From Mariprofundus sp. NF (GTDB lineage Bacteria > Pseudomonadota > Zetaproteobacteria > Mariprofundales > Mariprofundaceae), in contig NZ_VWNC01000001.1 in assembly GCF_013387455.1 (NCBI RefSeq), forward strand, positions 186,001-250,000: DNA of 64,000 nucleotides, given 5' to 3'. This document shows, piece after piece, positions 12,025 to 46,857 of the stretch. Made by a program: the position numbers and the translations under genes. How positions within the stretch are numbered: the stretch's first letter is position 1; each line of letters begins with the position of its first letter. The notes under the pieces were generated by a model. It had not been told where the DNA came from. It saw only the letters and a program-made list of their open reading frames with translations, and ran no database searches.

Positions 12025-12756
12025 ATGGAACAGCTTGATCAGGTCGCAGCGATACTCGCCATGACAATGGGCGCAGCCTGGGCCAGTGGCATCAATCTCT
12101 ATGCCGCGATTCTGGTGCTTGGCCTGATGGGCTCGACCGGCAATGTCGATCTTCCTCCGGGCCTTGAAATACTCTCTGATCCACTGGTGCTCTTTGCTGC
12201 CGGTGCGATGTACTGCGTTGAATTCTTTGCCGATAAGATTCCCGGAGTCGATACCGGTTGGGATATGATGCACACCTTTGTACGTATTCCGGCAGGTGCG
12301 ATGATGGCCATGGGAGCGGTTGGTGAGGTGGATCCGGTTGTCGGACTTGCCGCAGGTATTATGGGTGGTGGCCTTGCTGCCACGACACATGCCGCCAAAA
12401 CGGGGTCGCGAGCTATTATCAACACCTCCCCCGAACCTTTTACCAACTGGACCGCTTCGGTGGCAGAGGATGTGGCTGTGGTGGCCGGTCTGTGGACTGC
12501 ACTGAACCATCCTGTGCTCTTCCTTGTGCTGATGGTGCTGTTTATTGTGCTGATGATCTGGATGCTGCCCAAGTTGTGGCGTGGTATTAAACGGGTGGTC
12601 GCGAAGCTGCGCTCTCTCTTTGGTGGTAAAGAGGTGCCTCCCGAACCGGAACCGGTGGTGCCGGCCAGTGTCACAGCAGAAGCTGTTGACCCTGAACCCA
12701 AAGAACCACCTGACAAATCAGCAGGAGCAAGCAGCGGCGATACCGCTGCGCGATAG
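12025..12756 (+). CDS. DUF4126-type integral membrane protein
   Basis: 243 residues. The start at 12025 is used because AGGAGTGTAGCC precedes it. Several small-residue-rich hydrophobic segments (ASGINLYAAILVLGL, VVGLAAGIMGGGLAATTHAAKTGSRA) match DUF4126 proteins, whose function is unknown. A strong span (HPVLFLVLMVLFIVLMIWML) precedes a basic stretch and a Pro/Glu-rich cytoplasmic tail. The stop lies 14 bases before the repeat array, which could be part of this gene's 3' untranslated region. Confidence 0.75.
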   Translation: MEQLDQVAAILAMTMGAAWASGINLYAAILVLGLMGSTGNVDLPPGLEILSDPLVLFAAGAMYCVEFFADKIPGVDTGWDMMHTFVRIPAGAMMAMGAVGEVDPVVGLAAGIMGGGLAATTHAAKTGSRAIINTSPEPFTNWTASVAEDVAVVAGLWTALNHPVLFLVLMVLFIVLMIWMLPKLWRGIKRVVAKLRSLFGGKEVPPEPEPVVPASVTAEAVDPEPKEPPDKSAGASSGDTAAR

Positions 12757-12770
12757 GCCTTTATCGATAG

Positions 12771-13130
12771 TCGCCCGTAGGGTAAGGAGTAGGGATGACC
12801 CGAATCACAATCCGGCAGGATAGCCGGATTGGACGAGCTTGAACTTGCCCTTCGGGTGAGGGTCATGGATGCCCCGAATCACAATCCGGCAGGATAGCCG
12901 GATTGGACGAGCTTCAGCTTGCCCTTTGGGTGAGGGTCATGGATGCCCCGAATCACAAATCTACAGGACAGTAGATTTGGACGAGCTTTAGCTCGCCCGT
13001 AGGGTGAGACCCATGGATGCCCCGAATCACAAATCTACAGGACAGTAGATTTGGACGAGCTTTAGCTCGCCCGTAGGGTGAGACCCATGGATGGGTCGAA
13101 TCACCATTAGGCAGGATCGGCAATCCGAAC
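12771..13130 (+). repeat. Tandem 74-bp hairpin repeat (four full units plus partial ends)
   Basis: Full units begin at 12799, 12873, 12947 and 13021 (exact 74-bp spacing). A partial leading unit starts at 12771 and a diverged fifth at 13095. Each unit has a 9-bp perfect stem. Units 1-2 use CAATCCGGC/GCCGGATTG and units 3-4 use CAAATCTAC/GTAGATTTG: four base pairs changed on both sides with pairing kept. The six-base loop is AGGATA or AGGACA, so CAGGA is presented in the loop. A second small stem, CGAGC-TTTA-GCTCG, also shows G-T to G-C exchange between units. This points to selection on structure. A structured RNA that binds CsrA is one reading; a dispersed REP/MITE-like element is the alternative. 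Confidence 0.85.
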
Positions 13131-13200
13131 CGGAGCAAGTGGCACTTCAAAAGCCATCTGCCCAACTCTGTTGTTCCCGCTAACCCTCGATAAGCCAATC

Positions 13201-13240
13201 AAAGGCCATCGTGATAGTGGTCTTTCAATTTTATATATTT
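13201..13240 (+). terminator. Terminator-like hairpin after the 74-bp array
   Basis: AAAGGCCA (13201-13208) pairs with TGGTCTTT (13218-13225) with one G-T wobble and a 9-base loop, followed by the T/A-rich CAATTTTATATATTT. Its place about 70 bases after the last repeat unit suggests that a plus-strand transcript spanning the array ends here. Confidence 0.5.
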
Positions 13241-30827: not shown

Positions 30828-31010
30828 ATGCTTATATTGACACGAAAAAAAGGCGAATCGATTGCGATCGGGGATAACATTCAGATTCAGGTGCTGAACG
30901 TGAAGGGCGGACAGGTGCGCATTGGCATTGAAGCTCCACGTGAAGTCAGGGTCAATCGCGAAGAGCGCGTTGAAGCTTCCGGAAGCGAAAATCTCGTATC
31001 TGCTGCATAA
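30828..31010 (+). CDS. csrA: Carbon storage regulator CsrA
   Basis: 60 residues, the normal size. [16 protein letters not shown] and [18 protein letters not shown] are near-invariant in CsrA, including the RNA-binding strand 1 (Leu4, Arg6) and the conserved Arg-Val-Asn-Arg-Glu stretch. CsrA dimers bind GGA motifs in hairpin loops of mRNA leaders. AGCAGAGGAGAAC precedes the ATG. GGA-presenting hairpins occur in this same window (12771-13130, 57699-57713, 59464-59473). Confidence 0.97.
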
Positions 31011-46564: not shown

Positions 46565-46590
46565 AGTATCTTTCAGTCAATCTTTAGACA

Positions 46591-46700
46591 CAGATTGACG
46601 CAGATAAACACAGATAAACACAGATAAACACAGATAAACACAGATAAACACAGATAAACACAGATAAACACAGATAAACACAGATAAACACAGATAAACA
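46591..46700. repeat. Decamer tandem array, ten perfect CAGATAAACA units
   Basis: From 46601 to 46700 the 10-mer CAGATAAACA repeats ten times without a mismatch, preceded by one diverged unit (CAGATTGACG). It lies between the stops of two convergent genes. The remaining 46701-46857 holds nothing I can identify. Confidence 0.95.
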
Positions 46701-46857
46701 CTTTCTTTGTAGTTCGCTACTGGATCAGGAACAGTTTTCCGAATGTTGGCAAGGCATGTTCAAAACTATTCAGAATCTGCGTTCACAAGGTGAATTGCGC
46801 TGGCGCAAGAGAGGGTGCCTTGGGGCATTTGCGTCAATTTCTGGTTTCAATGGTTGA

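Follow-up and report, generated by a model that had tools for sequence, protein, structure and literature searches.

We analyzed a tandem repeat array in the DNA of Mariprofundus sp. NF; the window is the whole 64,000-nt stretch in which it lies, and coordinates in it refer to the + strand. The array directly follows a DUF4126 gene (12025-12756; Pfam DUF4126, E=5e-63, and the list of open reading frames), and the next gene on its 3' side, coding for a histidine phosphatase, is found on the opposite strand. The window also contains a csrA gene (60 amino acids; 30828-31010; PF02599, E=5e-23, G000:C1:216828-216968), as an earlier note on this DNA had stated, which is located 3' of an aspartokinase gene and encodes the proposed binding partner of the array. 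The tandem 74-bp array described in that note is recovered by TRF at 12771-13117, with a period of 74, 4.7 copies, and 86% matches. It starts with a degenerate unit 0 (12729-12807), into which the 3' end of DUF4126 runs and which scores 32.3 bits with R1, a covariance model built from 20 units of this genome only. Four units of 74 nt follow, each reading from ACAA to GAATC: unit 1 at 12807-12880 (88.0 bits, E=5.6e-17 for the match at 12806-12881), unit 2 at 12881-12954 (94.6 bits), unit 3, with an imperfect H4 stem, at 12955-13028 (87.6 bits), and unit 4, where the fold is most complete, at 13029-13102 (97.7 bits). A truncated unit 5 (13103-13130) is recognizable in the sequence across the TRF end at 13117 and retains the 5' arm of hairpin H1 and its GGA only. 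The array already ends near 13117-13130, and not at 13240 as had been proposed. Its unit spacing is exact (74, 74, 74), but the earlier description of four exact units does not hold for the sequences, which are not identical. A terminator-like stem is indeed present 3' of the array (13201-13225), but it is weak: three of its nine pairs are G-C, and about one such site is expected by chance in our scan. Elsewhere in the window, a 10-bp tandem repeat (ACACAGATAA) occupies 46588-46701 (11.4 copies, 96% matches in TRF).

Within each unit, the initial ACAA is followed by four hairpins and then by GAATC. H1 has 9 bp and an AGGANA loop, H2 has 5 bp, H3 consists of CCC-NNN-GGG, and H4 has ~5 bp and an ANGGAN loop closed by C-G, flanked by GA/GA and an outer pair. 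An ANGGAN loop closed by C-G corresponds to the CsrA consensus. The H1 stems read CAATCCGGC/GCCGGATTG in units 1-2 versus CAAATCTAC/GTAGATTTG in units 3-4; four pairs differ, with compensating changes on both sides that keep the pairing, and the H1 loops are constant (AGGATA and AGGACA; 12817-12822 in unit 1, with equivalents at 12891, 12965, and 13039), all as read from the sequence before. Each of the four units has the recurrent ATGGATG, whose hairpin, H4, is nevertheless complete in unit 4 alone (loop ATGGAT, closed by C-G, 13087-13092) and contains mismatches in units 1-3 (equivalents at 12865, 12939, and 13013). Eight GGA loop motifs plus extra motifs (about nine GGA motifs in hairpin contexts) fall within ~350 nt, a density by which the array would rank among the denser ones. 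The segment 12757-13245 folds far more strongly than its shuffles (z = -6.7). The GGA is predicted to be unpaired with a probability of 0.99-1.0 in the four AGGA loops of H1, and of 0.95 in the H4 loop of unit 4 (0.75, 0.57, and 0.32 in units 1-3).

We assessed covariation in 98 distinct copies from many taxa. Pairing is found in 96.6% of the cells of this alignment and drops to 33-49% when the register is slid, and two-sided changes occur at all 22 pairs, which was matched by none of 500 shuffles. The alignment was fitted to the structure and hence leans toward it, and an earlier MAFFT alignment already contained two-sided changes at 15 pairs. The outer pair, formed by the T after GGG and the A of GAATC, lies outside the model and is T-A in 74 copies, C-G in 54, and mixed in 5. 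All four hairpins covary strongly, and the structure is under selection. The H4 loop across copies is mostly CATGGATG, CACGGATG, CAGGATG, or CAGGGATG; the loops keep their GGA (AGGANA in H1, ANGGAN with C-G closure in H4) while the stems turn over.

The unit is not confined to this locus. R1 yields ~44 matches in the genome, single or in tandem and on both strands, and blastn finds 13 places, the window array included. Many scattered copies lacking loop conservation would, according to the earlier note, have spoken against a sponge; copies are scattered, yet their loops are conserved. Nearly every genome of the genus contains the element (up to 78 among the matches listed), as do most of the family and most Zetaproteobacteria. 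Beyond the Zetaproteobacteria it is scattered over Gamma- and Deltaproteobacteria and Magnetococcales, the named records being from Mariprofundus, other Zetaproteobacteria, Microbulbifer, Marinimicrobium, Gilvimarinus, Idiomarina, Woeseiaceae, Chromatiales, Pseudohongiella, Lysobacteraceae, Magnetococcales, Desulfobulbaceae, and Desulfatitalea. Searches with blastn against E. coli genomes, plasmids, and phages gave no match, a pattern scan of IMG/VR gave no occurrence, and in the open-access literature we found no description of the element outside Enterobacterales. A variant of ~70 nt, which lacks H2 and has an ACGGAN loop in H4, lies on the opposite strand as an insertion within main-family units and keeps GGA in both loops (L002 1632-1703, L004 1431-1502, and L048 1599-1672, all on the - strand). 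A second dispersed repeat family of Mariprofundus genomes (GTGCAGGCCATGGATGGCCTGCCAAAATCATGCAC...AAACCACATGGACGTGGTTT) also carries GGA in hairpin loops (L196 1501-1665, L198 1415-1585, and L017 490-740); BLAST finds about ten copies in the sister genome G015 and none in the window.

Copies located 3' of tRNA-Ser, -Gln, -Arg, -Asp, -Pro, -Glu, and -Lys genes and of tmRNA share the flanks GGTTCG|ACAA...GARTC|AATCC. Of 28 copies followed by a tRNA match of at least 6 nt, 19 have this match start at a distance of 19 nt from the tRNA 3' end, which places a fixed insertion site in the T-loop, between G57 and A58. Two loci allow comparison with an empty form: at L008 the boundary GCGC|AAAGGAG lies within a 5S fragment, with an intact 5S nearby, and at L017 the boundary GGCCTGCC|AAAATC lies inside another repeat, of which G015 has empty copies (L196, L198). 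In these empty and filled pairs, ACAA...GARTC is inserted with neither terminal inverted repeats nor a target duplication beyond one ambiguous A. Insertion appears to take place after C or G and before A. We considered a Y1/RAYT transposase as the mover and rejected it, since in the loci checked the element does not lie on both sides of such a gene: R1 has no match in the Y1 loci L089 and L091-L098, and L090 has one copy ~1 kb away, on one side only. Some element-bearing genomes are without any Y1/RAYT gene.

Repeats linked to tRNA genes have been known since 1978 without a function, and RrB, the rrnB T1-T2 spacer, is part of many expression plasmids. R1 matches E. coli RrB with 35.7 bits (E=1.7e-8 in 801 nt, E-values being rough), and RrB and the array units form the same four hairpins in the same MFE layout, with H4 imperfect in units 1-3. 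From this match, we group the element with RrA/RrB/RrF and the tRNA-linked repeats (TLRs). It shares with RrA/RrB/RrF the hairpin order, the boundaries (ACAAATC...), and GGA in the H1 and H4 loops. RrB, however, is located between two terminators, within a duplicated 3' end of 5S rRNA, whereas the window array is tandem, follows a protein gene, and has no rRNA fragment. RrB co-purifies with CsrA in an MS2 pull-down and binds it with an EMSA KD of ~100 nM (Stenum et al. 2021, PMC8144298); changing three GGA abolishes the shift, and RrB deletion or overexpression in E. coli has modest, partly contradictory effects (PMC8144298). Conservation of RrA/RrB/RrF was reported within Enterobacterales only (PMC8144298). 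For the TLRs (Rudd 1999, as cited in PMC8144298), 22 of which are listed in E. coli (PMC8144298), the hallmark is a stretch of 18-19 bp equal to the end of the tRNA or rRNA that precedes them, on its 3' side, and most of those in E. coli are predicted not to bind CsrA (PMC8144298). Insertion at one T-loop position accounts for this hallmark. Like TLRs, tRNA-linked copies of our element end in a tRNA 3' end; the window array differs in being unlinked to tRNA or rRNA, there being no tRNA in the window, no rRNA match, and no 18-19 bp of a tRNA or rRNA 3' end. Three other copies in the same genome follow tRNA-Ser, tRNA-Gln, and tmRNA. TLR-like tandem arrays also occur behind tRNA-Ser and tRNA-Gln in non-enteric bacteria (L162 3250-3850, L153 100-700), where the units carry a long palindrome, part of which is complementary to the tRNA 3' end.

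Other known RNAs resemble the element in part. CsrB-type RNAs are arrays of CAGGA(N)G motifs in hairpin loops that titrate CsrA. CsrB/CsrC and RsmX/Y/Z share with our array the GGA in successive hairpin loops and the proposed titration of CsrA, but each of these is a single gene that depends on GacA and has a promoter of its own, whereas here we find a mobile repeat without such signals. No Rfam family matches the window at gathering score, RtT (RF00391) included, and nothing useful appears at E<=10. RtT overlaps an R1 element after tRNA-Lys in L253 (53.1 bits, gathering score 45), and R1 finds weak matches only (15.6 bits) in the E. coli tyrT/rttR region. AaHKsRNA22 of Aggregatibacter (RF02902) has the same four-hairpin layout and covers the whole L214 element just above its cut-off, but the H4 loop of the Rfam consensus lacks GGA and the window array is unmatched. 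TwoAYGGAY (RF01731), a predicted CsrA binder (PMC4333381), resembles the element in its AYGGAY loops and the tandem GA in its stem, but has two terminal loops only and is found in other taxa; its covariance model has no match in the window. A predicted binding of CsrA to the element is well supported by analogy and pattern.

We compared the occurrence of the element with that of csrA. Among 397 Pseudomonadota genomes, 198 contain csrA and 64 the element; 62 of these 64 have csrA, and none of the 193 csrA-less genomes outside the family of Mariprofundus has the element (Fisher p ~1e-13, uncorrected for phylogeny, which confounds this co-occurrence; copies within one genome are likewise not independent). 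The family itself includes six csrA-less genomes of at least 90% completeness. At the threshold used, no element is found in four of them (G023, G031, G035, and G094); G027 has 56 copies and G028 has 6. In G027 and G028 together, GGA is found in 5/24 H1 and 8/24 H4 loops, compared with 25/29 and 27/29 in Mariprofundus sp. NF and, in a hand tally of Zetaproteobacterial copies of similar bit score, 12/16 and 14/16 (p ~0.001). The Enterobacteriaceae-like, csrA-positive G198 and G290 carry many copies (~56 in G290, as in G027), in which GGA is mostly lost among those read. GGA is therefore not needed for dispersal. One H1 subtype of csrA-positive Zetaproteobacteria has ACGA instead of GGA. In G027 (L236-L241), the H1 loop often reads AGTCCT, the reverse complement of AGGACT, as if a palindromic hairpin had flipped.

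A selfish mobile DNA element would be expected to show several of the features seen: insertions that are clean (in a 5S fragment, in another repeat, and before A), presence or absence between sister genomes, tandem arrays, and many copies in both orientations. Its hairpins would then be the single-stranded substrate of a recombinase, its GGA loops would serve that enzyme, and the array would be a local amplification with no host function. The REP/MITE-like alternative raised earlier is borne out insofar as the unit is dispersed and mobile, but it has no terminal inverted repeats or target duplications. We consider the selfish explanation unlikely: GGA is dispensable for dispersal in G027 and G290, yet it is kept elsewhere and tracks csrA, and no Y1/RAYT gene flanked by the element was seen in the loci checked, the gene being absent in some bearers. 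The element also prefers the sense strand of upstream genes. Upstream ORFs share its strand in a ratio of 53:26 (p=0.003; ORFs of at least 150 codons between stops) and upstream tRNA/tmRNA genes in a ratio of 18:0, with no strand bias of downstream ORFs, which favors a role in sense RNA. A rival explanation is that the hairpins protect or process mRNA and tRNA 3' ends (RNase E, exonuclease block), the tRNA 3' fragment of TLRs being a processing signal. Copies do lie 3' of genes and directly after tRNAs, and RNase E recognition of the 3' repeat has been proposed (PMC8144298), but we regard this explanation as improbable: the window array contains no tRNA 3' fragment, and neither the loop-specific conservation of GGA nor the link to csrA would be predicted. 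At two sites, L003 1470-1770 and 12700-12760 of the window (AACAAATAA; GACAAATCAGCA...), the upstream ORF has the element at its 3' end, and its final codons or stop seem to come from the element.

The GGA motifs in hairpin contexts and the terminator-like stem would fit a dedicated sRNA gene of the CsrB type, as proposed before, transcribed at this site from a promoter of its own. A scan upstream of the array gave promoter hits no better than those in shuffles, none of them convincing, and no GacA/UvrY-type site with up to two mismatches (one spacing tested); no CsrB-type family of Rfam matches. In the sister genome G015, whose DUF4126 is 95% identical, the same place holds one degraded copy only (L167), equivalent to unit 0, and no copy was found beside DUF4126 in other members of the genus. 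The array is thus a recent amplification (or was lost in G015), and it is not a conserved regulator, since the sister genome lacks it. A free-standing CsrB-type gene is accordingly very improbable. What survives of the sponge idea is the part that concerns CsrA, in favor of which we have the GGA pattern, the analogy to RrB, and the tracking of csrA.

We favor, with a probability of roughly 60%, the interpretation that the array is a CsrA-binding decoy in an mRNA 3' UTR. A mobile structured RNA element of ~74 nt has recently been amplified in tandem to give the window array, and in each four-hairpin unit H1 (AGGANA) and H4 (ANGGAN, closed by C-G, with the tandem GA and outer pair behind) present GGA. 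If the units are transcribed, they would form the 3' UTR of the DUF4126 mRNA, and the array may bind CsrA of Mariprofundus at multiple sites and titrate it, the titration being the probable benefit. Compared with RrB and the TLRs, the window array is new in that it is not tRNA-linked, is tandem and mobile, and lies far outside Enterobacterales. What matters is likely to be a whole family of CsrA decoys that is spreading, and not a single sponge gene in isolation. More tentatively, at somewhat less than even odds, a class of mobile RNA elements across Pseudomonadota and reaching Desulfobacterota may carry pairs of CsrA-binding hairpins, with RrA/RrB/RrF and TLRs as settled members, the TLR hallmark as an insertion footprint, and copy number as a CsrA decoy load that tracks csrA. 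The analysis ties an anonymous repeat of iron-oxidizing bacteria to RrB and to TLRs, whose hallmark gains a concrete explanation in the fixed T-loop insertion and for which a testable function, that of mobile CsrA decoys, can be proposed. If this is true, regulatory evolution would have a route that the papers we found do not describe, in which CsrA activity could be tuned by short RNA elements that transpose into 3' UTRs and stable-RNA operons.
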